33,079 nucleotides of DNA from contig CALXYN010000021.1 in the NCBI GenBank assembly GCA_944392975.1, forward strand, positions 1 to 33,079, read 5' to 3'. The translations under genes were made by a program, and so were the position numbers. This stretch comes from an uncultured Spirochaetaceae bacterium. GTDB taxonomy: Bacteria > Spirochaetota > Spirochaetia > Sphaerochaetales > Sphaerochaetaceae. Shown here in pieces: positions 896 through 30,250 of this stretch; the stretch's first letter is position 1, and every line of letters begins with the position of its first letter. The notes beneath the pieces were generated by a model. That model was not told where the DNA came from. It was given only the letters and a program-made list of their open reading frames with translations, and made no database searches.

Positions 896-2497
896 TTACT
901 TATTTATTGGATTTCCTTCTTCATCAAGTTCAACAACAGTATAGCCACCATTATTTATGATTTTAATTGAATCGGCTGCGGGATAATTAGATGCTCCCTT
1001 GTCAACAACAATTGCTTCATCGGAAATCAGCATTACACGAGAATCTCCTACAAGTCCGTTTTCTCTTCCATCGATGTGGTTGTTTATAATTCTTCCTCCC
1101 TGCATATCAAGTGAACCACCACGAAGAAGAATTCCAACGCCACCATTGATAATAAAAGTACCATCTGCGATATTTACAACTCCTTTATTAGCCATATAGA
1201 TTCCACATGCAATATATGGTCTTAAAACACCATCAATGGTTCTAAATGAAGAAATATTCCCTGTGAATGTTCCACCATTTATATTGATTGTATAGGATGG
1301 ATATTCAGAATTTACCCAAGCAGCCTCTGGTATTTTTGTTCCGTTTGTTCCAATAACTGCATTGTCTTCTGTTGTAAATGAGCCACCATTTACAGTAAGA
1401 ACTGAACCATGATAAACTCCGAGGCCAAATTCTCTTGCCTCAACAGTTACTCCAGAGTTTATCGTAACTTTTCCTGAGGCCCATGTATTTGTTTCAGGGT
1501 CATAAGTTCCTACATTTATACCATTTCCAACATCAGAAATATATGTACCGCCATTGATAATGGCTTCTGCAGCGTCGGTTATATGTACGACACCGTTTCC
1601 TTTTGTATGTACAGTCCCTGTGCCATTTATTGTCAAGAAAGCGTTGTTGCGTGCATAAATAGAATTTTTTTCAACTGTGGATTCTATATTGTGTCCGTTT
1701 AAATCGAGAGTAAGGGATTTATTATCAATAATTATTTGACTATCTGTAGTGACATCGCTTACAAGTCTGATTTCATTACCGCTAGTTGCATTATTTACTG
1801 CTTCATTGAGTGATTCATAGCCTGTTTTTGTTGTAATGTTCAGAGCAGCATACTTATCAGAGAGTGCTTCATCTCCAATAGAAACATCTGCTCCTGTTTC
1901 AGTTGAGATTTCAATAGCTAGCTTATCTGCATTTGAATTGTTTTCATTTATACGGATCTTAAGATTTGAAACTTCTCCGCTAATGTTTGCTGACGTTGCT
2001 GTTTCTCCAATCTCAATTACGGTTGCACCTCCAGATACTTCAAATCCATTGATTTCAATACGACCATTATTAACCGTTATTATTGAATTGAAATTCGAGG
2101 CGGCATCTGAACTTACTGAAGTTGTTAGATTGTTAATTCTCAGGTTTGCAGAATCAGAAACTTCAAAAAGAGTCTTGGAAGAGTTTGTTCTTGCTGAATT
2201 TATACTCGTGGAAGCTACAGTTGAGGAAGAAAAAGGAAATCTTGATTCTTCTATCTTCAGACTTCCTGAAATCTTCTTTGTTCCTTTGATAGTAATCGGG
2301 AAATAGCTGTCATCTGGATCAACCGTGAGGTTAAGCCTAGCTGAGGCTGTTTCACCTGACTGCATGAACAGTACGAGATCCTCGATATCTGTTATTTCTT
2401 GAGGTCTAAGGCTGTCCCAGTCGAATACGTACTGTGTACATGCTGTTACAGACAGAATGAGAAGTAAGGCTGCAATGGCAAGTAAATGCTTTTTCAT
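896..2497 (-). CDS. Surface lipoprotein with beta-helix-like repeats, paralogue 1
   Basis: Start chosen at 2497 (533 aa) because GGAGGACATCA precedes this ATG and the signal peptide begins here; the frame opens 19 codons further upstream without a ribosome site. Residues 1-20 form a lipoprotein signal ending in the lipobox VTAC, so Cys20 is the predicted lipid anchor. Residues of about 20-190 form a domain shared with the two neighbouring paralogues (motifs DLVLFMQ, NLTVDPDDSYFPITIKG, SIITVNNG). After about residue 240 come short repeating units such as LTLDLNGHN, LTINGTG, VTINSG, YTININGGTF, ILLRGG and LDMQGG, which resemble the rungs of a right-handed parallel beta-helix. No catalytic residues are recognised. 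The function is unknown; an exposed adhesin-like or glycan-contacting role is inference only. Confidence 0.75.
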   Translation of the reverse strand: MKKHLLAIAALLLILSVTACTQYVFDWDSLRPQEITDIEDLVLFMQSGETASARLNLTVDPDDSYFPITIKGTKKISGSLKIEESRFPFSSSTVASTSINSARTNSSKTLFEVSDSANLRINNLTTSVSSDAASNFNSIITVNNGRIEINGFEVSGGATVIEIGETATSANISGEVSNLKIRINENNSNADKLAIEISTETGADVSIGDEALSDKYAALNITTKTGYESLNEAVNNATSGNEIRLVSDVTTDSQIIIDNKSLTLDLNGHNIESTVEKNSIYARNNAFLTINGTGTVHTKGNGVVHITDAAEAIINGGTYISDVGNGINVGTYDPETNTWASGKVTINSGVTVEAREFGLGVYHGSVLTVNGGSFTTEDNAVIGTNGTKIPEAAWVNSEYPSYTININGGTFTGNISSFRTIDGVLRPYIACGIYMANKGVVNIADGTFIINGGVGILLRGGSLDMQGGRIINNHIDGRENGLVGDSRVMLISDEAIVVDKGASNYPAADSIKIINNGGYTVVELDEEGNPINK

Positions 2498-2544
2498 TGA
2501 TGTCCTCCATATTGAACTGTGACAGATTCTACTTAAAGGACTTT

Positions 2545-2578
2545 GATGTTTCAATGCGCATGCAAGGTTATTATTATA
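2545..2578 (-). promoter_or_regulatory. Promoter/leader of lipoprotein 1 with shared 13-bp element
   Basis: The minus strand has a TATAAT at 2573-2578 with no convincing -35 box. Downstream, 2545-2557 reads GCATTGAAACATC, ending 47 nt before the ATG. The same 13 bases occur 46 nt before the ATG of the second lipoprotein gene (4519-4531). Confidence 0.45.
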
Positions 2579-2742
2579 CTAGGAAGTGTTTCTATCTTGT
2601 TAGATTAGGGGTTAAAAATAGGAAAAACAGAAAACTTGAATATATCTTTTGGAAATTATATTAAGTGGTACGTGTTAGAGTGCACACTATGTGTTATTTA
2701 TAATCTAATTATTGTATTTGATAGGTTTTCTTTGTTCATATG
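2579..2742. other. Intergenic between lipoprotein genes 1 and 2
   Basis: AT-rich spacer with no gene. It lies between the terminator of lipoprotein gene 2 and the -10 box of lipoprotein gene 1. Confidence 0.4.
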
Positions 2743-2771
2743 AAAAACAGGCCAAACTTAATAGTCTGGCC
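2743..2771 (-). terminator. Intrinsic terminator of lipoprotein gene 2
   Basis: On the minus strand GGCCAGACT and AGTTTGGCC pair over 9 bp (one G-U) around the loop ATTA, followed by TGTTTTTC. This is a classic terminator, placed 22 nt after the stop codon. Confidence 0.8.
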
Positions 2772-2792
2772 CGTTACTTTACAGTTAATATA

Positions 2793-4472
2793 TTATTTTA
2801 TTGGATTTCCATCTGCATCCGCTGGAAGATTTGTTCCATTAAGATAACAGTTTTTACCGAAGTAAGTTATATTATTTGCATATTCATCTGCAATTGTCAG
2901 CTCTGCTCTATGTGTATCATCTGCTGCAAGATAAACAGGTACTGCATTTTTATAGTTGCAATCTTCGGCTACTGTGATTGAAGTGTTTTCCACTATGCAG
3001 ATTGATTCTGAAGGGTAGCCACCTCCATTTCTATTTCCAACCATGAGTGTCGCATATGGAACACCATTACCTTCATCCCATTGGCCTGCAAGTACATTAT
3101 CAAACATCCAACCATAAGATGTTTTGTTTCCGCCAATTAGTGTACTATTCTTTATTTCTGCTCTTGTTGCTCCTCTGACTATTACAGCTTGAGAACCACC
3201 AATAATAGTGGAATTGTCAATATTCAGTGTTCCAGCTACATTATAGAGAACAGCATTACTGTCAGAATCAGGGGTTGTATTTTTCAGAACACGAGAATCC
3301 ATTGGAATTCCAAGTTCTGATATTTTGTTTCCAACCTCAAGTAAGGAATTTGAAATTGTAATATTTACGCCGTTTGCGCTATTTGAAGCATTTGTTCCTA
3401 TTGCATAATATCCATAGACAAAAATTTCGGAATCCACAATTTTTATAGAAGCTGCGTCGTAGGCTGTCGTAATGCCTGTAACATTTGAATTAAGCGTAAC
3501 ATTATCAAGTGTAAGGTTTGCATATGTGTGTACCGTAATTCCGGAGTTTGTCACATCGGTATTGTTTAAATTGACTAAAAGAGTTCCATCACTGAATGTT
3601 GTACTTTCAGATTCCTGTACAGTATATCCTTTTTCCAGATTGATAACTAACGTGTGTCCATTCAGATTAACAACTGTTGAACCATCTTTTGAGGGAAGAC
3701 TGTAACCAGCTTCTGAAGTATCTGTATTTGTTATTACAATATCGTTGAGAAGTTTTGCCATTCCATATTGAGAAAGTGCTGCTTCAAGTTCTTGCTCTGT
3801 AGTAACATCAAATCCTCCGGAAATATCAGTTTGTGGAATATCTGGATTGTTATTGCTTATATTTTCAAAAATTATACTAGAGTCCACATTGTCCTCATCA
3901 ATATCAATCTTCCCTGGATTCGAGTTCTCTATTCTCACGTTCTCTGATGCAGTTTCTTCTCCGATGTAAAGACCAATAACAGCAGAGTTTTCGCTTATCT
4001 GGATGTTAAGCTTCTCTCCTCTGATTGTTCCGCCGCTAACCTCGATGACTGAATTGAATGATCTATCTGCACTGTCATCGACATTGATTGTGAGCGAATC
4101 GGATTCAAGGATTGCCCCAGTTCCGACAATAAAGAGATTCTTCAGTGAGTTTGCTCTTGTAGAAACGCTACCCGGGGGGGTAGCAGTTGAGGAAAAATAA
4201 ACTGCTCCTCTTGATTCTGCAACCTCTATCCTTCCAGAGATCTTCTTCGTTCCCTTGATCTCAATAGGGTAGCTGCTGGAAGTAGGGTCTATGGTGACGT
4301 TTACTCTTGCTGACTTTGATCCGTTATCAAGAAGGAAGAGCCTGAATTCCTCTTCCGATGTTATTGGCTTTCCTCCTGGAAGGAAGTCTTCCCAGTTGTA
4401 CTGATACTGGGTACAGGCCGTTGCAGCCAGAATAAGAAGGATGACTGCAAGTGCTGAAATGCATTTCTTCAT
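2793..4472 (-). CDS. Surface lipoprotein with beta-helix-like repeats, paralogue 2
   Basis: 559 aa; ATG at 4472 preceded by GGAGGATAATC. The signal peptide ends in ATAC, giving Cys20 as the lipid anchor, followed by TQYQYNWED. The N-terminal 190 residues match the paralogues (NVTIDPTSSSYPIEIKGTKK, FNSVIEVSGG, GLYIGEETAS). The C-terminal part has parallel-helix-like rungs: VVNLNGHTLVI, LTLDNVTLNSN, ITISNSLLEV, LNIDNSTIIGG, AEIKNSTLIGG. A run of seven Cs (on the coding strand) lies at about residue 97-99 (TPPGS) inside the shared domain. A downstream terminator and its own promoter suggest a single-gene transcript. Function unknown. Confidence 0.75.
   Translation of the reverse strand: MKKCISALAVILLILAATACTQYQYNWEDFLPGGKPITSEEEFRLFLLDNGSKSARVNVTIDPTSSSYPIEIKGTKKISGRIEVAESRGAVYFSSTATPPGSVSTRANSLKNLFIVGTGAILESDSLTINVDDSADRSFNSVIEVSGGTIRGEKLNIQISENSAVIGLYIGEETASENVRIENSNPGKIDIDEDNVDSSIIFENISNNNPDIPQTDISGGFDVTTEQELEAALSQYGMAKLLNDIVITNTDTSEAGYSLPSKDGSTVVNLNGHTLVINLEKGYTVQESESTTFSDGTLLVNLNNTDVTNSGITVHTYANLTLDNVTLNSNVTGITTAYDAASIKIVDSEIFVYGYYAIGTNASNSANGVNITISNSLLEVGNKISELGIPMDSRVLKNTTPDSDSNAVLYNVAGTLNIDNSTIIGGSQAVIVRGATRAEIKNSTLIGGNKTSYGWMFDNVLAGQWDEGNGVPYATLMVGNRNGGGYPSESICIVENTSITVAEDCNYKNAVPVYLAADDTHRAELTIADEYANNITYFGKNCYLNGTNLPADADGNPIK
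4167..4184. repeat. Homopolymer tract (G7/C7) inside an inverted repeat
   Basis: Seven Gs on the plus strand (4174-4180) are seven Cs in the coding sequence of lipoprotein 2. The tract is flanked by GCTACC (4167-4172) and GGTAGC (4179-4184). It is in frame here. Gain or loss of one base would truncate the protein shortly after the N-terminal domain. Confidence 0.6.
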
Positions 4473-4518
4473 GATTATCCTCCACGTAATCTACATAAAA
4501 TGATATATGCCGAAAGAA

Positions 4519-4542
4519 GATGTTTCAATGCAATAAAATATA
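4519..4542 (-). promoter_or_regulatory. Promoter/leader of lipoprotein 2
   Basis: The minus strand has TATATT at 4537-4542 as a probable -10, and the 13-bp element GCATTGAAACATC at 4519-4531 near the expected transcription start. It lies immediately beyond the terminator of lipoprotein gene 3, supporting a separate transcript. Confidence 0.45.
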
Positions 4543-4556
4543 CTTTGGTCGTTTTA

Positions 4557-4593
4557 AAAGAAAAAAGGGAATGCCCCTTTTCGAACATTCCCT
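4557..4593 (-). terminator. Intrinsic terminator of lipoprotein gene 3
   Basis: Minus-strand stem AGGGAATG/CATTCCCT (arms at 4586-4593 and 4566-4573, 8 bp) with a 12-nt loop, followed by a run of seven T and then CTTTT. It begins 23 nt after the stop codon. Confidence 0.8.
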
Positions 4594-4615
4594 GTTAAAA
4601 ATTATCGTTCTGATT

Positions 4616-6280
4616 TTAATTAAGTATAGTAATATCATCTACATCAGCGTCGTTTGTTTTTGTGTTGTAGAGATTCTCAACTTCGCAATCATCGCCTCTT
4701 CTTATAGATCCTTCTACAGTTACAGGCTCAGTTGCATTGTTCTGCCAGATATAAATTCCATGATACGATACAGGTGATTCTGCTCTGTTTGTTGAAGGAG
4801 CTTCAATTGTTACATTATCTAGTTTTGCTTTTGTTGAATATGCATAAGATGACCCAGAATTATTGTTTCCAAAAACTATTGCCGCTAGTGGAACTTGATT
4901 CCCCTGACCCCATGTTAAAATAAAATCTCTTGCATCATGGTCATTGCCAGTAGCTTTAAATTTAGAATTTCTTAAATCATAGTTTCCACCCCTTGCTATC
5001 ATAGCCTGTCTGTTTCCTATGATTGTTGAATCTTCAATAGTTACGTTTCCCTTTACATTGAAAAGTATTGTAGTAGAACAGGGGTCAGTTGGATCTCCAC
5101 AATTTTCTGTTGTTATAGTACTTCCGTATATTCCAATGGTAAGATCTTCAGATTCGGGACCGGTAGCATTTGTTCCTATTCCATAAAAACCACCAAAATC
5201 AAAATAGGAATCATAAATATTAACTGTCATTCTGTTATTGCAATTGGAAAGGAATATTCCGACTATATCTGATTTGTAATCAACATCATCAATGATAAGA
5301 GATGTATCTTCTGTTAATTCTATTGATGCTGTTTGAAGGTTCCAGTCCGCATCTTCTGACAATAACTGCATATTCAGATTACCGTTAGAAATCGAAAGTG
5401 TCTTTTCACCTTTTGGAAGATACCAACCGACATATGATGTCAATGTATGTCCATTTAAATCGATATCCAGGGATTTTATGATTTTCCATACATTAAAATG
5501 GAGAGTGCCAGAATTTTGGGTTTCTTTTTCCAGCACAGTTTGCCAATCTTTATATTCTGCTAAATCTTCATAAGTAATAGAAAAATCCTTGGTAAGGATT
5601 ACTTTTTCGTAATAAAAAAGATTGTAAAAGAAGTCCTCAGCATTTTCAGCATCGAATCTTGTTGTGATGTCATCCTGCGGAATGCTCGGGTTGTTTTCCG
5701 TTATATTATCAAGGATTTTATCTGATTCAGCATTTCCTTCATCGATAACAATTCTGATATTTGAATCATTTACGTCGATACTGGAAGCTGTTGCTTTTGG
5801 TCCAATTGAAAGACCTGTAACAGATTTTGAGGAAGTGAATGACTCTGCATTGAATTCACCTCCATTAACATAAATAATTGCGTTGATGCTGTCTGCCGCA
5901 TTGCTTGTAACGGAAGCTTCGAAATTTGTTACGCTTAGAGAGGCGTTGTCTGCAATTTCAAAGAGGTTAGTTGCACCTGCCTTTGTTGCATATGTTGTAA
6001 CAGATGAGAATGGGAACGGGAAAGGTGAATCTTCCTTGATTGTGATTTTTCCAGTAATTGTCTTATTACCATTGATTGTTATCGGTAAATAAGAGTTATC
6101 TGGGTCGATTGTGAGATTGACTTTTGCTGAGTCCTTCTCATGCTTCTGCATGAATTTCACAAGATCCTCAACTGTTGTGATTTCCTTGTCAGTTGGAAAT
6201 TCAAACACATACTGTGTACATGCTGTTACAGCAAAAATAAGAATAAGCGCTGTAACTGCAAGCATATGCTTAATTTTCAT
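4616..6280 (-). CDS. Surface lipoprotein with beta-helix-like repeats, paralogue 3
   Basis: 554 aa; ATG at 6280 chosen because CGGAGGGAGATA precedes it and the signal peptide MKIKHMLAVTALILIFAVTAC starts there. Lipid anchor predicted at the Cys of VTAC. The shared N-terminal domain is clear (EDLVKFMQ, NLTIDPDNSYLPITINGNK, NAIIYVNGGEF, GLSIGPKATAS). The C-terminal half again has repeat-like segments (LDIDLNGHTL, LSISNGNLNM, LIIDDVDYKS, VTIEDSTIIG), but its sequence differs strongly from the other two. The pattern is a conserved anchor domain with a diversifying distal part. It lies just downstream of the Cro/C1-like gene on the same strand. Function unknown. Confidence 0.75.
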   Translation of the reverse strand: MKIKHMLAVTALILIFAVTACTQYVFEFPTDKEITTVEDLVKFMQKHEKDSAKVNLTIDPDNSYLPITINGNKTITGKITIKEDSPFPFPFSSVTTYATKAGATNLFEIADNASLSVTNFEASVTSNAADSINAIIYVNGGEFNAESFTSSKSVTGLSIGPKATASSIDVNDSNIRIVIDEGNAESDKILDNITENNPSIPQDDITTRFDAENAEDFFYNLFYYEKVILTKDFSITYEDLAEYKDWQTVLEKETQNSGTLHFNVWKIIKSLDIDLNGHTLTSYVGWYLPKGEKTLSISNGNLNMQLLSEDADWNLQTASIELTEDTSLIIDDVDYKSDIVGIFLSNCNNRMTVNIYDSYFDFGGFYGIGTNATGPESEDLTIGIYGSTITTENCGDPTDPCSTTILFNVKGNVTIEDSTIIGNRQAMIARGGNYDLRNSKFKATGNDHDARDFILTWGQGNQVPLAAIVFGNNNSGSSYAYSTKAKLDNVTIEAPSTNRAESPVSYHGIYIWQNNATEPVTVEGSIRRGDDCEVENLYNTKTNDADVDDITILN

Positions 6281-6287
6281 TATCTCC

Positions 6288-6332
6288 CTCCGTAATGGAT
6301 AATTCATGAGAATTATACTCCAAATTACGGAG
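6288..6332 (-). promoter_or_regulatory. Nested inverted repeats over the promoter/ribosome site of lipoprotein 3
   Basis: Outer arms CTCCGTAAT (6288-6296) and ATTACGGAG (6324-6332), with an inner pair ATAATTC/GAATTAT (6299-6305, 6310-6316) around ATGA. On the minus strand the inner repeat contains GTATAAT, a probable -10, and the outer arm next to the gene contains CGGAG of the ribosome site. Either a dyad operator or, on a longer transcript, a hairpin masking the ribosome site. Confidence 0.5.
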
Positions 6333-7277: not shown

Positions 7278-7667
7278 TTAAGTTCGTATTTCATCTTTCA
7301 GAAGAAGTATAGCTCTTTCCATGTCTTTCCTGACCTGATTCCTTACTTCTTCCAGGCTATTCATTTTTCTGACAGGGCGCAGGAAATACATCACGCCGAG
7401 TGTCATAGTCTCTCCATAAATATCTTTGTCAAAATCGTGGATGTTCGTCTCTATTGTTTCTGTTCCGCTGTTATCAACGGTGGGTCGATGGCCGATGTTG
7501 GTCACACCTATATACTTCCCGCTTTTCAATGAGACTATGGATGCATAGACTCCCTCCGGTGGTATTTCAGAACCCCGGAGGGAGAGGTTTGCTGTCGGCA
7601 TGCCTACAGTCCTCCCCAGTCCTTTTCCATGTACTATTTTCCCTGTGAGTATGGCTATTTCCGTCAT
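7278..7667 (-). CDS. Stand-alone riboflavin kinase
   Basis: 129 aa. Phosphorylates riboflavin to FMN using ATP. The whole protein is the riboflavin kinase domain: GKIVHGKGLGRTVGMPTANL (residues 9-28, with the PTAN nucleotide/metal motif at 24-27), PPEGVYA, TNIGHRPT, ETNIHDF with the likely catalytic Glu73, and DIYG. Most bacterial homologues are the C-terminal half of bifunctional RibF (about 300 aa); the N-terminal FAD synthetase half is absent and no remnant precedes it. Its start overlaps the stop of the upstream FMN-binding protein by one base (TGATG), so the two are probably translationally coupled. Confidence 0.9.
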   Translation of the reverse strand: MTEIAILTGKIVHGKGLGRTVGMPTANLSLRGSEIPPEGVYASIVSLKSGKYIGVTNIGHRPTVDNSGTETIETNIHDFDKDIYGETMTLGVMYFLRPVRKMNSLEEVRNQVRKDMERAILLLKDEIRT

Positions 7668-8068
7668 CAGAATGTCAGGGATTCATCAGGAGATGTGAAT
7701 GAAGAGAATATAGCCGTAGCGTTCTCAAGTACGAAGACTTCAGTATTTCCATCATCCTCGTCATACATGCTCCTTAGTTCCGGATAGGCATCAAGCATGC
7801 TCTTTCTGGCTTCTCTTCTGTCATCTTCTTTTGTATCTGCAGCGATTCTCAGCCAGCTTCCATCCACGAATGCACATATCTCGATTTTTGGATTATGGTG
7901 GATCTGCATCGAGACGGATTTCTTTTTTCCAGTCTGTATATAGAGTTTTCCTTCAAACTCATTGATGGTTCCGAAAGGCCTTACGCGAGGCTGTCCTCCA
8001 TCATCGGTTGCCAGGTAGTATGTCCCTGCTTTTTTGAGAAATGCAATTACATCGCACTTTGTTTTCAT
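7667..8068 (-). CDS. Pyridoxamine 5'-phosphate oxidase-like FMN-binding split-barrel protein
   Basis: 133 aa; ATG at 8068 follows AGGGAGGCGAAA; the frame is open further upstream but without support and would run into the divergent gene. The sequence FLKKAGTYYLATDDGGQPRV, then VRPFGTINEFEGKLYIQT and ICAFVDGSWLRI, is typical of small FMN-binding split-barrel proteins annotated as pyridoxamine 5'-phosphate oxidase family. The true reaction is unknown; relatives include flavin-dependent reductases and haem or F420 proteins, not necessarily vitamin B6 oxidases. It is coupled to a riboflavin kinase that makes FMN, supporting FMN as the cofactor. Confidence 0.8.
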   Translation of the reverse strand: MKTKCDVIAFLKKAGTYYLATDDGGQPRVRPFGTINEFEGKLYIQTGKKKSVSMQIHHNPKIEICAFVDGSWLRIAADTKEDDRREARKSMLDAYPELRSMYDEDDGNTEVFVLENATAIFSSFTSPDESLTF

Positions 8069-8152
8069 TTTCGCCTCCCTTCTGATGATATCCACATTTT
8101 TGCCTTTTGGGTATGGAACAACTGACGTTCTTTCACCATAATAAGCCAGTCT

Positions 8153-9049
8153 ATGGATAGAAGATTCACACTTGAAGAGCTCAAAGCGGAAAAGCCCTGG
8201 CTTAAAAGAGGCACGCTTGTGTTCATGAGCGATTTCGGTCTTGTGGATGGTGCTGTAAGCGCCATGCACGGTGTTGCAGATGAGGTCTCTCCGTCACTCC
8301 GTCTTGAAGACCTTACCCATGATATCCCGCAGTTTTCAATCTGGGAGGCATCGTACCGCCTTATTCAGGCAATGACATACTGGGCTCCTGGCACAGTGTT
8401 CATTTCCGTTGTTGATCCAGGGGTCGGTTCCGACAGAAAGAGTGTTGCTGTCCTGACAGCATCCGGTCATGTTGTCGTCACTCCGGATAACGGTACTCTC
8501 ACGCATGTCGCAAGAGAAATCGGGATCCTTGAACGCAGAGAGATATCGGAAGCGGTAAACAGGCTTAAGAACAGCCAGAGAAGCTATACGTTCCATGGTC
8601 GCGATGTCTATGCGTATACTGGTGCTCGTATTGCCTCAGGTGCAATTACATTTGAAGAGACTGGCCCTGTTCTGGAAGGCTCTCCTGTAATGCTCCATGT
8701 GGAGGAAGCAAGGATTGAGGGTAACACTCTCATTGGAGCTATCGACATTCTTGATACGCGCTACGGCTCACTCTGGACCAATATTCCTGATACGCTATTC
8801 GCCTCTTTTGGTGCAAAGCATGGCGATATCCTTCATGCGGAAATCCGTCATGATGATATGACCGTATTTGGCTATGACATGAAGTTCTGCAGGAATTTTA
8901 CGGAAGTTGCAAAGGGCGAACCGCTTATTTATATAAACAGTCTTCTCAATGTAGGAGTAGCTATCAATCAGGGCAGCTTCTCAGACCGTTATGGTATCGG
9001 TACGGGAGAAGGCTGGAGAATCGCATTCACAGAATCCCGTAGGGGATGA
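8153..9049 (+). CDS. S-adenosyl-L-methionine hydrolase (adenosine-forming), DUF62 family
   Basis: 298 aa. The family uses activated water to split SAM into adenosine and L-methionine. Visible motifs: MSDFG (25-29), VDPGVGS (87-93), PDNGT (111-115) and FHGRDVYA (147-154). The characterised Asp-Arg-His triad is matched by Asp88, Arg95 and His148, with spacing as in archaeal members, and there is no sign of the chloride/fluoride-transferase specialisation. About 20 residues precede the usual family start. No clear Shine-Dalgarno precedes the ATG. The next gene follows after 10 nt and encodes an ECF transporter S component, so the three genes 8153-12248 form one operon linking SAM breakdown with a vitamin-type importer. 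Confidence 0.88.
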   Translation: MDRRFTLEELKAEKPWLKRGTLVFMSDFGLVDGAVSAMHGVADEVSPSLRLEDLTHDIPQFSIWEASYRLIQAMTYWAPGTVFISVVDPGVGSDRKSVAVLTASGHVVVTPDNGTLTHVAREIGILERREISEAVNRLKNSQRSYTFHGRDVYAYTGARIASGAITFEETGPVLEGSPVMLHVEEARIEGNTLIGAIDILDTRYGSLWTNIPDTLFASFGAKHGDILHAEIRHDDMTVFGYDMKFCRNFTEVAKGEPLIYINSLLNVGVAINQGSFSDRYGIGTGEGWRIAFTESRRG

Positions 9050-9059
9050 GGAGTATAAA

Positions 9060-9620
9060 ATGGCAAAAAAGAATATCAATTTTGTCAAAAGTGTAGTCAT
9101 CATTGCTATCGGTGCTGCACTTTACGGATTCGGAGGACTTCTTTCGATACCGGTTTTCACAAACACCTACCTTAAGCCGGCAATGGCAATCCTTGCTCTG
9201 TTCTCAGCACTCTGGGGACCGGTTGTAGGTGCTCTCGTTGGTTTCATCGGCCACTGCATCACAGACCTTGTCTATGGTCAGATCTGGTTCAGCTGGGCAC
9301 TTGGAAGCGCAATCGTCGGTGCTCTGATGGGTCTTTATCCATATTTCACGAAGAATTCCCTTGAAGAGGGTGTATTCGGTGGAAAGCAGGTCTGCATCTT
9401 CACTGTGATGGCTCTTGTAGCTAACTTCGTCGGTTACATGATTTCCGTACTTCTTGACGTTGTTGCATATGGTGAGCCGTTCTTCAAGTCCCTTGCACAG
9501 CAGCAGATCACAACTGTAAGCAATACAGTCGTCATCGGAATCATCGGCAGTGCCCTGATGCTTCTCGTTGCCAAGAAGTTCTCCTCAGCTATCAGCCTGA
9601 GCGAAGATTCAAACGTCTGA
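9060..9620 (+). CDS. ECF transporter S component (UPF0397-like)
   Basis: 186 aa; ATG at 9060 chosen because GAGGAG lies just upstream. A hydrophobic protein with about five or six membrane segments. The stretch IAIGAALYGFGGLLSIPVF, then PAMAILALFSALWGPVVGAL and GFIGHCITDLVYG, matches the UPF0397 group of substrate-capturing S components. In energy-coupling-factor importers the S component binds a vitamin or other micronutrient and docks on EcfT. The substrate cannot be read from sequence. Its position between SAM hydrolase and the ECF energising protein suggests a SAM-, methionine- or nucleoside-related ligand, but this is inference. Confidence 0.85.
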   Translation: MAKKNINFVKSVVIIAIGAALYGFGGLLSIPVFTNTYLKPAMAILALFSALWGPVVGALVGFIGHCITDLVYGQIWFSWALGSAIVGALMGLYPYFTKNSLEEGVFGGKQVCIFTVMALVANFVGYMISVLLDVVAYGEPFFKSLAQQQITTVSNTVVIGIIGSALMLLVAKKFSSAISLSEDSNV

Positions 9621-9632
9621 CAGGACGATAAG

Positions 9633-12248
9633 ATGATTGAATTCTCAGATTTCTCATTTCAGTATAAAAGCCAGACAAAGCCGACACTCCACAACGTCAG
9701 CCTGAAAATCAGGGATGGGGAGAAGATTCTAATTGCAGGAGCTTCCGGTAGCGGTAAATCGACTATTGGCAACTGCATAAATGGTCTTATTCCTCATTCT
9801 CTTGGCGGTGTGATAAATGGAAGTCTGAGAATCAATGGCATCGAAACCAAGGAAAGCGATATTTATGAAATAAGCCGCGTAGTGGGTACTGTCATGCAGG
9901 ACACAGATGCGCAGTTTGTCGGACTTTCCGTAGGGGAGGATATAGCGTTTTCGCTCGAGAATCAGTGTGTTCCTGTGGATGAAATGCACGAGACAGTGGA
10001 ACGTGTCTCCTCCCTCGTTTCGATGGAATCCTTCCTTTCTTCCAAACCTGAGCAGATATCAGGAGGACAGAAACAGCGTGTTGCACTCTCCGGTGTACTT
10101 GTGGACGATGTTCCTGTGCTCCTCTTCGATGAGCCGCTTGCCGCACTTGATCCTGCAACTGGAGAACTTGCCATAGAGCTTATCGATGACCTTCACCAGA
10201 AAACTGGAAAGACAGTAATCATCATCGAGCACAGGATCGAGGATGTCCTTCATCGTCCTGTAGACCGCATCGTGCTTATTGATGAAGGCCGTGTCGTTGC
10301 CGATGATACTCCTGAAAACATACTCTCTTCTGGAGTGCTTGTTGAGCGTGGCCTTAGAGAGCCTCTCTACATCTCCGCATTCAAGAGCGCTGGTTGTGAT
10401 ATCTCCCATGAGAAGAATATAGCTTCTCTTGAGAATATCGATATAACACCATATAAAGAGCGCTTTCTCTCTTGGTTCTCATCCCGTCGCAGGAAACTCG
10501 AGATTCCAGATACTCCGCTCGCGCTTTCCTTCAAGGAAATTTCATTCAGCTATGATGGCAAACGCAATGCGCTTTCCTCTGTCTCGTTCGATGTCCACAA
10601 AGGAGAAATGGTTTCGATACTCGGTAAAAACGGCGCAGGAAAGAGTACATTAGCCTCTATTCTCACTGGTCTTTATAAGCCTGATGAGGGCTCGATTTTC
10701 ATCGATGGACGTAAGGCCAACGATGACAGTATCGCAGAGCGCAGCAGTAAGATAGGCTTTGTGATGCAGAATCCGAACCATATGATTTCCCATGCCATGA
10801 TTTATGATGAAGTGGCATTCGGACTACGTCTGAAAGGAATGGGAGAGGATGAGATCAGGGAACGGGTGATGGAAACTCTGAAGCTCTGCTCGCTTGCGCA
10901 GTATCATAAATGGCCTATCAGCGCATTAAGCTATGGACAGAAAAAACGTGTTACCATCGCATCCATTCTTGTCATGCAGCCGGAGATTCTGATTCTTGAT
11001 GAGCCGACAGCCGGACAGGATTATAAGCGTTATACAGCGATGATGAGCTTCCTTTCTGAGATCAACAGGAAAACCGGGGTGACGATTCTCTTTGTCACCC
11101 ATGACCTTCATCTGGCGCTTGAATATACCCCACGCTCAATCGTGCTTGCAGATGGTCATCTTCTGGCAGATGCTCCTATCAGCCAGATATTTTCAGATGA
11201 GAAGCTTCTTAAGGATGCAAACCTCAAGATCACAAGTCTCTACAGGCTCAGCCAGAAACTCGGTCTCAGCCACAGCGATTCTGTTGCATTCATCGAGACA
11301 TTCATCGTTGAGGAGCGGAGAAAGAGGGGAGAGGATGAACCTCTTCTCGAAGAGCGTGTGGAAGAAGAGACAAATGTAAGGAACGAGGAGAAAAAAGAGC
11401 CGGCTCCAAAACGCAAGGCACTCAAGTTCAATGTCGAGTATTTCCCTGCTGACAGCTGGGTTCACAGACTGAATGGTGTGACTAAGTTCCTTGCACTGCT
11501 TTCGTTCCTGATGATCTGTCTTGTCACTTTTGATACCAGGATCCTTGCCCTCACGCTCCTCCTCGGTCTTTTTGTGATATCAAGCTGCAAGGTGCCCGTG
11601 AGAGTTTACCGTCCGATACTTATCCTGGTGCTGCTCTCTGTCTTTCTGAATGCCCTGATAATATTCCTCTTCTCGCCGGAGCAGGGGTGCACTTATATAG
11701 GTTCCAGAACAGTACTCTTCGGTCTTCCCGATGTCCGGTATGCACCTACATTAGAGACGCTCTGGTATCTTCTGATAGTCTGTCTGAAATATTTCTCGAT
11801 ATCTCCTGTTGCGATTGCGTTTATTTACTGCACGCAGCCAAGCGAATTCGCATCATCTCTGAACAGGGTGCATGTAAGCTATAAGATCTCTTATGCTATC
11901 AGTCTTGCTTTCCGCTATATCCCAGTGATAATGAGCGATTACGTGAATATCCGCAACAGTCAGGAATGCAGGGGTGTTGAGATGTCTGATAAAGCAAAGC
12001 TCAAGGCACGCATCAACGCAACAGCAAGAACGCTTTCTCCGCTTGTTCTTTCCTCGCTTGATAAGATTGACATCATTACGAACGCGATGCTCCTCAGGGG
12101 CTTCGGAAGAGGCAAGAAGAGAACGTGGTATATGGCAAGGAAACTTAAGGCTGTGGACATTGTTTCAATCCTGGTTCTCTTTATTATCCTTGTTATTGCA
12201 ATTGTCTCCCGCTTTGTCTTTGGCGTCAAATTCTACTATCCGTTCTGA
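9633..12248 (+). CDS. Fused ECF energy module: two ATPase domains plus EcfT
   Basis: 871 aa; ATG at 9633 with AGGA upstream. Domain 1 (about 1-235): Walker A GASGSGKST (36-44), signature SGGQKQR (143-149), Walker B VLLFDEP (162-168). Domain 2 (about 297-525): Walker A GKNGAGKST (331-339), signature LSYGQKKR (432-439), Walker B ILILDEP (452-458). A charged linker (about 556-598) leads to an EcfT/CbiQ-like membrane domain (about 605-871) starting HRLNGVTKF and carrying the two Arg-Gly coupling motifs ECRGVE and LLRGFG. Two-ATPase fusions are known in this ECF subgroup, but EcfT is usually a separate gene. No internal stop or restart is seen, so the fusion looks genuine. Together with the preceding S component it makes a complete two-polypeptide importer. 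Confidence 0.9.
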   Translation: MIEFSDFSFQYKSQTKPTLHNVSLKIRDGEKILIAGASGSGKSTIGNCINGLIPHSLGGVINGSLRINGIETKESDIYEISRVVGTVMQDTDAQFVGLSVGEDIAFSLENQCVPVDEMHETVERVSSLVSMESFLSSKPEQISGGQKQRVALSGVLVDDVPVLLFDEPLAALDPATGELAIELIDDLHQKTGKTVIIIEHRIEDVLHRPVDRIVLIDEGRVVADDTPENILSSGVLVERGLREPLYISAFKSAGCDISHEKNIASLENIDITPYKERFLSWFSSRRRKLEIPDTPLALSFKEISFSYDGKRNALSSVSFDVHKGEMVSILGKNGAGKSTLASILTGLYKPDEGSIFIDGRKANDDSIAERSSKIGFVMQNPNHMISHAMIYDEVAFGLRLKGMGEDEIRERVMETLKLCSLAQYHKWPISALSYGQKKRVTIASILVMQPEILILDEPTAGQDYKRYTAMMSFLSEINRKTGVTILFVTHDLHLALEYTPRSIVLADGHLLADAPISQIFSDEKLLKDANLKITSLYRLSQKLGLSHSDSVAFIETFIVEERRKRGEDEPLLEERVEEETNVRNEEKKEPAPKRKALKFNVEYFPADSWVHRLNGVTKFLALLSFLMICLVTFDTRILALTLLLGLFVISSCKVPVRVYRPILILVLLSVFLNALIIFLFSPEQGCTYIGSRTVLFGLPDVRYAPTLETLWYLLIVCLKYFSISPVAIAFIYCTQPSEFASSLNRVHVSYKISYAISLAFRYIPVIMSDYVNIRNSQECRGVEMSDKAKLKARINATARTLSPLVLSSLDKIDIITNAMLLRGFGRGKKRTWYMARKLKAVDIVSILVLFIILVIAIVSRFVFGVKFYYPF

Positions 12249-28125: not shown

Positions 28126-28608
28126 ATGACAGATACTGATAAGAGACTTTTGAGAAGGACTGTAGATATTGCGCACCAGGCAATGGAGAAAGGCAATCAT
28201 CCTTTCGGAGCCCTGCTTGCAGATAAAGACGGTAATATCCTGATGGAGCAGGGTAATGAATTCCAGGAAGGTGGAAGTGCTTATCATGCAGAGACGCTGC
28301 TGTTGATGAAAGCGGCAAAGAAGTATTCTCCTGAGGAGCTGAAGAGCTGTACTCTCTATTCAAATTTTGAGCCATGCTGCATGTGTACAGGTGCACTTTA
28401 CTGGACGAATGTAGGACGCCTTGTCTTTGGGGCTACGGAGAAGGAACTTCTTGCCTGTACCGGTGATAACGAGGAGAATCCAACATTCTCCCTTTCTTCA
28501 AGAGAAGTTGTAGAAAGAGGGCAGAAAGACATCATCATAGAAGGCCCTGTCGAAGATGAGGAGCTTCTGGAGGAAATCCTGAAAGATCACATAGGGTTCT
28601 GGAAGTGA
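28126..28608 (+). CDS. Zinc-dependent nucleobase/nucleoside deaminase (CDA fold, GuaD-like)
   Basis: 160 aa. Zinc site: His54 in YHAE with the proton-shuttling Glu56, and Cys84/Cys87 in EPCCMCTGALYW. HPFGALL near residue 25 and the length place it with guanine deaminase-like and tRNA-adenosine-deaminase-like members of the cytidine deaminase superfamily rather than with cytidine deaminase. In operon with an isomerase and a purine nucleoside phosphorylase homologue. It could deaminate guanine released by the phosphorylase, or an adenine nucleoside before phosphorolysis; sequence alone cannot decide. Its TGA overlaps the GTG start of the next gene. Confidence 0.8.
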   Translation: MTDTDKRLLRRTVDIAHQAMEKGNHPFGALLADKDGNILMEQGNEFQEGGSAYHAETLLLMKAAKKYSPEELKSCTLYSNFEPCCMCTGALYWTNVGRLVFGATEKELLACTGDNEENPTFSLSSREVVERGQKDIIIEGPVEDEELLEEILKDHIGFWK

Positions 28609-29549
28609 TAGAGTCTCTTCTTCCTTCAATGCTTCGGCATGAGAATATATCGAGGGTGGAGATGGAAGGTGTTTATATAACGGACCGCCGTGCTCTGCCA
28701 TTTAATCATGAAGAAGTTCTCTGTCGCAATTTCAGCGAAGTTGCATTAGCTATCAAAGAAATGGTCACTCAGGGCGGAGGACCGCTGGAAGCTGCTCTCA
28801 ACGCTCTTCTTTTCACTTATAGGCATGATGAGAGTGAGCTCTCTGAAGCCGTTCTCTCTCTTTCATCTGCAAGACCCACGAACACGACTATGAAGAGAGA
28901 GCTTGAGAGTGTCATGGAACGCTACAGGGCAGGGGAGAATATGGAGGATGTGGTCTCCTCCGTCTTCAGACGTTATGATGAAATCTACGACAGGATATCT
29001 GATATAGGTGAGAGCCTTATTGAAGATGGGGATGGTATACTTACCACCTGCTTTCCGGAGCATACGTTCATGCTTTCGATGAAGAAGGCAGTGCTCGGTG
29101 GCAAGCATATCACTGTCTATGTTCCAGAGACTCGTCCATATCTTCAGGGAGCTCATCTGACGGAGCCATGTCTAAGGGAAATGGGTATAGAGTGCTTTCT
29201 CATTACCGATGGAATGCCCGGCCATTTCATGCGCTGTGGCAAGATAACAAAATACATGAGTGCTGTTGATCTAGCACTTCCTTCACGCCATGTGGTGAAT
29301 AAGACCGGCACGCTTGGAAATGCTATTGTGGCCAAGTACTATGGCATTCCATATTATGCTTTTTCAATTGGCCTTGATGAAAGCATGAATGCAGATGAGA
29401 TTGTGATTGAATACAGGGATGGGGAGAGTCTGAAGCGTATTTCCGGGGTACGTACGGCAGACGAAAAAGCTGCAGCACTCTATCCTTGTTTTGATATAAT
29501 AGACCCGGAACTTGTTACAGGAATAATAACAGAGGGAGGCGTAATTTGA
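28605..29549 (+). CDS. Divergent MtnA-like sugar-1-phosphate isomerase (eIF2B-related)
   Basis: 314 aa; GTG start at 28605, overlapping the deaminase stop (GTGA), GGAA upstream. MtnA isomerises 5-methylthioribose 1-phosphate to the ribulose form. Kept: the catalytic Cys149 (ILTTC) and Asp222 (AVDLAL), ETRPYLQGAHLT (175-186), ARPTNT (89-94) and VNKTGT. Changed: the phosphate-binding RGAPAIG motif of MtnA is QGGGPLE (56-62), and the N-terminus is short. This argues for a separate subfamily with a related but different pentose 1-phosphate substrate, such as ribose or 5-deoxyribose 1-phosphate. It is flanked by the deaminase and phosphorylase that would supply it. Confidence 0.8.
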   Translation: MIESLLPSMLRHENISRVEMEGVYITDRRALPFNHEEVLCRNFSEVALAIKEMVTQGGGPLEAALNALLFTYRHDESELSEAVLSLSSARPTNTTMKRELESVMERYRAGENMEDVVSSVFRRYDEIYDRISDIGESLIEDGDGILTTCFPEHTFMLSMKKAVLGGKHITVYVPETRPYLQGAHLTEPCLREMGIECFLITDGMPGHFMRCGKITKYMSAVDLALPSRHVVNKTGTLGNAIVAKYYGIPYYAFSIGLDESMNADEIVIEYRDGESLKRISGVRTADEKAAALYPCFDIIDPELVTGIITEGGVI

Positions 29550-30250
29550 AGGCTATAATCGGTGGAACCGGTATTGATAAGGACAAGCGTTTTCTTGATG
29601 GAATGGAGCGCCTTGTCACAAAGTATGGGGATTCTTACTATTCTGTGATTGACGGCATTGTATTCATGCCCCGCCATCGTCCAGGGCATTCGCTTCCACC
29701 TCATATGATTAATTATAAAGCCAATGTGCAGACGCTTGTGGATCTCGGTGTTGATGAGGTCATTTCAATATATGCTGTGGGATCAATCACGCGCCGTCTT
29801 GCTCCGGGACGTTTCGGGCTTGTAAGGGATTTCATAGATCTTGCTTATTCCCGTGAGAACACGTTCTATGATGGCAGTACAAGAGAGGTCAGGCATACAC
29901 CTTTTGTGGAGCCTTTTGACAGGAAACTCGGCGCATGTTTTGCAGGCAATGCGGTTCATGCTGGTTATTCTCTGGCGATGGACTCTGTTTACATAACAAC
30001 AAATGGCCCCAGGCTGGAGACACCGGCTGAGATCATGGCGTACAGGAATATGGGAGCAGACGTTGTCGGTATGACGCTGGGAACTGAAGCCGCGCTTTTA
30101 AAAGAAGCGGGAATCAGGAATGCAGCTGTTGCCTTCTCGATAAACTGGGCTGCAGGGCTGGATGCCGAGGGGATATCTTTCCTTGAAGATGAGACTGTGG
30201 ATAAACTTACAGAGGCAATTATAGCGATTGCGGTGAAAACGCTTTCCTGA
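29546..30250 (+). CDS. MTAP-family purine nucleoside phosphorylase, predicted 6-oxopurine specificity
   Basis: 234 aa; TTG start at 29546 with AGGGAGG 6 nt upstream, overlapping the isomerase stop (TTGA). Phosphorolysis of a nucleoside to base plus sugar 1-phosphate. Family motifs: IIGGTGI (4-10), PRHRPGHSLPPHMINYKAN (42-60), AVGSIT, TNGPRLETPAE (152-162) and GMT. Human MTAP recognises adenine through Asp220 and Asp222; the matching segment here is SINWAAG, giving Asn200 and Ala202, like bacterial methylthioinosine phosphorylase. It should therefore prefer inosine/guanosine-type bases over MTA. It passes the sugar phosphate to the MtnA-like isomerase. Confidence 0.85.
   Translation: MKAIIGGTGIDKDKRFLDGMERLVTKYGDSYYSVIDGIVFMPRHRPGHSLPPHMINYKANVQTLVDLGVDEVISIYAVGSITRRLAPGRFGLVRDFIDLAYSRENTFYDGSTREVRHTPFVEPFDRKLGACFAGNAVHAGYSLAMDSVYITTNGPRLETPAEIMAYRNMGADVVGMTLGTEAALLKEAGIRNAAVAFSINWAAGLDAEGISFLEDETVDKLTEAIIAIAVKTLS

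Follow-up and report, generated by a model that had tools for sequence, protein, structure and literature searches.

Why bacteria hydrolyse S-adenosyl-L-methionine (SAM), a costly metabolite, is an open question according to PMC12120602, where the physiological role of DUF62 enzymes is likewise called unsettled. The question is posed by a stretch of 33,079 bases (the window) on contig 21 of a spirochaete genome (2.07 Mb, 109 contigs, 95.4% complete), in which a DUF62 SAM hydrolase gene heads an operon with an energy-coupling factor (ECF) importer of the UPF0397 type. From sequence comparisons, we consider it probable (roughly 60%) that this operon is a SAM import-and-split module, in which the UPF0397 S component would capture extracellular SAM, the EcfAA'T motor would release it into the cytoplasm, and the hydrolase would cleave it into L-methionine and adenosine. 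The module would serve chiefly as a source of methionine (and adenosine), and in cells that have lost metK it could in addition provide SAM as such; which way the flux runs and how it divides are predicted, as is the ligand. SAM would be the simplest cargo joining the hydrolase, the replacement of that enzyme by a methyltransferase, control by SAM or methionine, and loss of metK, while methionine or another sulfonium compound is a possible ligand.

Neither an assignment of SAM to UPF0397 nor an account of the pairing of UPF0397 with DUF62 was found in the literature searched (mostly outside subscription journals). If SAM is indeed the cargo, DUF62 beside UPF0397 would be a salvage enzyme, giving purpose to a seemingly wasteful SAM hydrolysis; a large set of proteins called riboflavin transporters would be misnamed; bacteria would be taking up SAM from the environment as a nutrient; and SAM auxotrophs would exist among the spirochaetes of the window's genus.

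The operon and its recurrence across genomes

The first gene (8153-9049, + strand) encodes the SAM hydrolase (SAM_HAT/DUF62), with matches to SAM_HAT_N (PF01887, 158.9 bits, cut-off 26.3) and SAM_HAT_C (PF20257, 72.6 bits, cut-off 25.5). Asp, Arg and His are the catalytic residues of DUF62 SAM hydrolases, and positions 88, 95 and 148 of the window protein hold this set, which in the 80 loci described below is kept by 59/61 ECF-linked and 34/35 unlinked hydrolases. The closest solved sequences are DUF62, chlorinase and fluorinase proteins; both Pfam domains and the three residues are shared with StDUF62, PH0463, SalL and fluorinase relatives, whereas pairing with an importer sets the window's enzyme apart from DUF62, or SAM hydroxide adenosyltransferase, as described. 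Against the NCBIfam (R)-SAM hydrolase equivalogs it scores below cut-off (NF058624, 131.7 of 350 bits; NF053629, 98 of 470), and among the matches listed its nearest named records are uncultured Spirochaetaceae and Spirochaetales.

The UPF0397-type S component, the predicted SAM-binding subunit, follows at 9060-9620 (+), with PF07155 at 118.4 bits (cut-off 26.7) and NF010182 at 172 bits (cut-off 99); its best start is the ATG at 9060, the listed start at 8991 being an in-frame ATG upstream, within the hydrolase gene. The third gene (9633-12248, +) encodes a fused EcfA-DUF3744-EcfA'-EcfT energising protein, a single chain of 871 aa that holds two ABC_tran domains, DUF3744 and CbiQ (Pfam), with TIGR04520 and TIGR04521 over cut-off. 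Its parts lie approximately at 9633-10373 (EcfA), 10332-10547 (DUF3744), 10527-11264 (EcfA') and 11454-12119 (EcfT), and the ECF set in the window is complete, with an S component, two EcfA ATPases and EcfT. The sequence-only reading had described a complete hydrolase with Asp88/Arg95/His148, placed first in an operon with a UPF0397 S component and an energising protein. Domains and residues bear this out, as do the open reading frames called from the sequence, with gaps of 10 nt (hydrolase to S component) and 12 nt (S component to EcfA-A'-T); the energising protein proved richer than claimed, with both ATPases and the T component in one polypeptide.

An AlphaFold model of the S component (A4, 40 sequences; mean predicted local distance difference test score 92.2, predicted template-modelling score 0.88) has the ECF S-component fold. 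Solved S components align to it at Z of about 11 to 17, with VIA-align values of 17.3 for ThiT, 16.3 for 4hzu (HmpT-type), 15.3 for the folate-type 7nnt and 15.1 for RibU; since several S types score alike, the substrate cannot be told from the fold. H65, W79, D133, E139 and Q147 are common to UPF0397 proteins and absent from three further paralogues within PF07155, a family comprising several types of S component; the window protein is 19-23% identical to these three.

Hydrolase relatives across phyla were collected in one scan of a species genome collection, and the best 80 of at least 585 confirmed relatives were analysed. In 45 of these 80 loci the hydrolase has a UPF0397 gene no more than 6 kb away, mostly adjoining it (700-850 bp centre to centre), and in one extra locus (L114) EcfAA-T adjoins the hydrolase at a contig end. 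None of the 35 genomes with hydrolase loci lacking S holds a UPF0397 gene over cut-off anywhere, and no neighbour common to the stand-alone hydrolases was found among the 35 loci. Among the matches listed, the pairing occurs in Spirochaetota, Bacilli, Clostridia, Erysipelotrichia, a metagenome-assembled genome (MAG) of Actinomycetaceae and the gammaproteobacterium Psittacicella, which answers the doubt attached to the sequence-only reading that adjacency might be confined to the window's lineage. Gene orders vary (hydrolase-S-AA-T; S-AA-T-hydrolase-hydrolase; hydrolase-S-AA-T-hydrolase-hydrolase). On a quick tree with long branches, indicative only, the ECF label changes about 10 times along the hydrolases, at least 5 of the changes being forced, and by these changes a single clade of ECF-linked hydrolases is ruled out.

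Among 40 relatives of the same genus or class, PF01887 was found in 15 genomes, with PF07155 directly adjoining in nine and about 3 kb off in three (G005, G022 and G027, the last in the order S-AA-T-hydrolase-hydrolase); in G013 the hydrolase and ECF parts end on contig edges, and G032 and G038 have a hydrolase with no PF07155 nearby. In 98 Lactobacillales genomes, UPF0397 was present in 33, the hydrolase in 36 and both in 28, co-located within 6 kb in 28/28. Bacillales carried UPF0397 in 14 of 150 genomes, with the hydrolase adjoining 12 of the 14 S genes. Moreover, two Enterococcus faecium plasmids carry annotated hydrolase, S, ATPase and T component genes as one block, under labels such as 'S-adenosyl-l-methionine hydroxide adenosyltransferase' and 'ECF-type riboflavin transporter substrate-binding protein', and a transposase gene lies at most a few kb away. 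S-AA-T genes without the hydrolase occur on replicons of Vibrio and Cetobacterium and on a plasmid of Lactobacillus amylolyticus. Neither chance nor local, the pairing is genuine and widespread, and such repeated co-occurrence points to a shared function.

Several hydrolase loci were further observed to depart from this pattern. Four tandem SAM_HAT genes follow S-AA-T in L277 (G251), where the first reads Q/S/F for Asp/Arg/His and the last is short. In L050, L053 and L060 (G005, G013 and G022) Tyr replaces the catalytic His of the hydrolase, whose gene converges on the ECF genes instead of sharing their operon. At a second site in G015 (L056), two tandem SAM_HAT genes stand right after an MFS_2-type transporter gene, and in L081 and L096, both Bacteroidota, an APC-type amino-acid permease gene (by Pfam for L096) lies right upstream of SAM_HAT, perhaps another importer-hydrolase pair. 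A SAM_HAT frame adjoining S at G114:C1:720051-720497 is interrupted by a single in-frame TAA and may be a hydrolase in decay next to an importer that has been retained.

Regulation, enzyme replacement and metK loss

Regulation was tabulated for 107 S genes, with L134, L142 and L123 left out because they duplicate L322, L330 and L337; the window and its same-genus/class loci L049-L062 stand outside this table. A T-box accompanies the hydrolase at 19 genes and a homocysteine methyltransferase at one, an S-box occurs with no enzyme at five, 67 have the hydrolase with no element found, and 15 have neither. Rfam T-boxes lie right upstream of the operon in L086, L089, L099, L133, L108, L132 and L134, and of S in L213. 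The specifier was AUG in 20/20 T-boxes at S operons, 16 hydrolase-linked ones and L213 being read by a simple pattern script, which as a control read UGG (TGG in DNA) in two L117 T-boxes, and L311, L320 and L331 by eye. SAM riboswitches (Rfam; model R1) lie right upstream of S in L263-L267, all Lachnospirales; R1 gives none right upstream of a hydrolase-linked S operon, and its two other matches (L314, L099) are on the opposite strand.

None of the five S-box operons has the hydrolase or the homocysteine methyltransferase. Ignoring relatedness, Fisher tests gave 1.9e-5 for presence of the enzyme in T-box versus S-box operons and, within Clostridia, 0.002 for S-boxes in 0/27 operons with the hydrolase versus 5/13 without. 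The S proteins of S-box operons average 58% identity to those of T-box, hydrolase-linked operons, so that both probably share a substrate. These data suggest a rule by which methionine-sensing operons would need an enzyme turning SAM into methionine, whereas SAM-sensing operons would not.

Control by methionine or SAM, at 20 T-box and 5 S-box genes of the 107, all relatives of the window's S, is a trait of the MtsT/MtsA type; a 'methionine-regulated ECF transporter' (MtsA) is already annotated in print, and MtsTUV/MtsABC resembles our system as an ECF transporter tied to methionine regulation. In the relevant passages, a Streptococcus suis gene list has MtsA beside a gene that goes by the name 'RNA polymerase subunit delta' (PMC9423846), mtsABC is placed in the MetJ regulon of Vibrionales (PMC4239095), and neither gives the substrate or a hydrolase pairing. 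The PDB chain 7ccg_A, which is related to SAM_HAT, bears a matching label, 'DNA-directed RNA polymerase subunit delta', so the S. suis gene may be a misnamed SAM hydrolase. We infer that MtsA/MtsT is this UPF0397 family. MetJ-like tandem boxes were sought around two Vibrio UPF0397 loci, which have no hydrolase, and none was seen at up to 4 mismatches.

In L213, the S-AA-T operon ends in a PF02574 homocysteine S-methyltransferase, in the hydrolase's place, and its S protein is 51-55% identical to those of L215, L216 and L217, which have the hydrolase in that same place. SAM is a substrate common to the DUF62 and homocysteine S-methyltransferase families. Furthermore, the pair in L219 follows genes for an NlpA-type lipoprotein, an M20 peptidase, a NIL-domain ABC ATPase, an ABC permease and a Trep_Strep membrane protein (Pfam), the last perhaps a second S component, and thus adjoins genes of the MetQ-M20 peptidase-MetN-MetI type; L228 shows identical gene sizes in mirror order, a likeness of sizes, Pfam having been run on L219 only.

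Of 77 genomes tested, 73 gave a match to the MetK domain. The four without one are G256 (no completeness figure), G005 (76% complete) and, from the same genus as the window, G020 and G021 (20 contigs, 95 and 96% complete); a full-length MetK query likewise found no metK in them. RsmH, a SAM-dependent methyltransferase, is present in 6/6 genomes tested, including all four; G020 and G021, two sister species, have the cassette and RsmH and lack metK. Within the window's genus, metK is missing in 3/12 genomes with hydrolase and S versus 0/9 tested controls without the hydrolase. In G020, the metK-flanking gene order of G014/G001 is intact in a 304-kb contig with the metK slot empty, and includes a homologue of the gene adjoining metK in G000 (a threonine dehydratase by look); the stretch compared in G021 stops short of the slot.

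Two known arrangements offer parallels. The SAM transporters of Rickettsia, Chlamydia and Bacteroidetes are secondary transporters of another superfamily, and we know of no hydrolase partner for them. They bring SAM into bacteria (PMC5381601). In QrtT-QueK-QueL queuosine salvage, the gene for an ECF S component is accompanied by one for an intracellular enzyme, which splits the nucleoside brought in (PMC11477304); the substrate differs from the proposed SAM, and the likeness is one of gene arrangement.

Competing explanations

Several observations weigh against SAM import and splitting. In Lachnospirales, where 17 of 116 genomes have UPF0397, only 4/17 have the hydrolase in the operon, and 67/86 hydrolase-linked S operons have no regulatory element recognised. 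No T-box or S-box was found by the methods used at the window operon or the other spirochaete operons searched; at Rfam gathering thresholds, the window holds no T-box, riboswitch or other element except one tRNA, and its operon is assumed to function like those of its Firmicute relatives. In L078, L087, L093 and L110, stand-alone hydrolases carry methionine T-boxes in genomes with no UPF0397 over cut-off, which indicates that methionine metabolism can make use of the enzyme even where this importer is missing. G020 and G021 share 94% nucleotide identity around the operon, and such close relatives make their metK loss one event. Finally, a non-selective hydrolase would waste the sole SAM of a metK-less cell.

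A variant of SAM scavenging, tentative and less likely than not, would sort epimers. With age, SAM in the environment would come to contain the unusable (R,S) form beside the (S,S) form; the importer would take both, (S,S)-SAM would serve as cofactor, and DUF62 or the L213 methyltransferase would turn the (R,S) form into methionine. The enzyme replacement would be explained by both families including (R,S)-SAM users. If true, this would give a role to DUF62 stereoselectivity, and metK-less spirochaetes could depend on SAM from outside and still retain the hydrolase.

It is unlikely, although worth weighing, that S imports methionine or a non-adenosyl precursor, with the hydrolase belonging to the same methionine regulon but acting separately, to recycle damaged intracellular (R,S)-SAM. 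T-boxes and S-boxes fit any methionine importer, the stand-alone hydrolases likewise carry methionine T-boxes, MetNIQ-type genes adjoin the pair in L219, and StDUF62 prefers (R,S)-SAM (PMC12120602). However, the co-location of S and hydrolase in 28/28 Lactobacillales genomes, the enzyme-free S-box operons and the SAM source of metK-less G020 and G021 would all be left unexplained.

Still less probable is another sulfonium or adenosyl thioether as cargo, such as S-methylmethionine, methylthioadenosine, decarboxylated SAM or a SAM-derived natural product. The homocysteine S-methyltransferase of L213 speaks for it, belonging to the family that uses S-methylmethionine; yet S-methylmethionine offers DUF62 no adenosyl group to cleave, methylthioadenosine is no methyl donor for the methyltransferase, and the substrate common to both enzyme families is SAM. 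The name MtaT presumably stands for methylthioadenosine. Its use for an ECF component, by name only, in PMC3654945 is a further point in favour of such a cargo.

A vitamin importer (for riboflavin, or for B6 like PdxU/HmpT) with the hydrolase as a chance neighbour is very improbable: the riboflavin naming of NF010182 (NCBIfam) and PF07155 (Pfam), TmRibU as top Foldseek match of the S model (E 1.6e-4), the divergent flavokinase gene upstream and the inclusion of PdxU and HmpT in PF07155 (PMC9997740) favour it, but ThiT, HmpT, FolT, PanT and RibU fall within about 3 Z units by VIA-align, and none of the loci put through Rfam has a flavin mononucleotide (FMN) riboswitch upstream of S, the sole FMN element (L227) being about 0.7 kb past the end of the EcfT gene, with methionine/SAM elements present instead. 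The S profile reaches S. aureus RibU at E 2e-4 only.

Neighbouring genes

The sequence-only reading had proposed import of SAM or a relative followed by its splitting, and had joined to this a downstream nucleoside importer and a salvage trio. Recurrent pairing, methionine/SAM RNAs, enzyme replacement and metK loss favour the former part, with a predicted ligand, whereas the latter links proved weak. BMP-type ABC genes follow the operon in 3/7 judgeable, directly linked same-genus loci (present in L055, L057 and L061; absent in L049, L052, L058 and L059; L051 left out, its sequence ending too early), and opposite-strand genes intervene in 2/3 of the loci that have them. The salvage trio begins 15.9 kb downstream; neither it nor the BMP transporter is a conserved part of the cassette. 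At 28126-30250 (+), deaminase, IF-2B/MtnA-like and phosphorylase-superfamily genes stand in a tight row, the MtnA and MTAP models scoring below curated cut-offs. Riboflavin RfuABCD was considered for the BMP genes and rejected: they match BMP/PnrA-type lipoproteins and other binding proteins, with no solved RfuA match at E 1e-3.

On the other side of the operon, three consecutive lipoprotein-like genes (896-6307, -) encode proteins of 552, 559 and 563 aa with no Pfam or NCBIfam match. Upstream of the hydrolase and divergent from it, a stand-alone flavokinase domain (129 aa, without the FAD synthetase part) and a PNPOx-like gene occupy 7278-8269 (-); both genes stand beside the hydrolase again in same-genus L051, L052, L057 and L061, and in L069.

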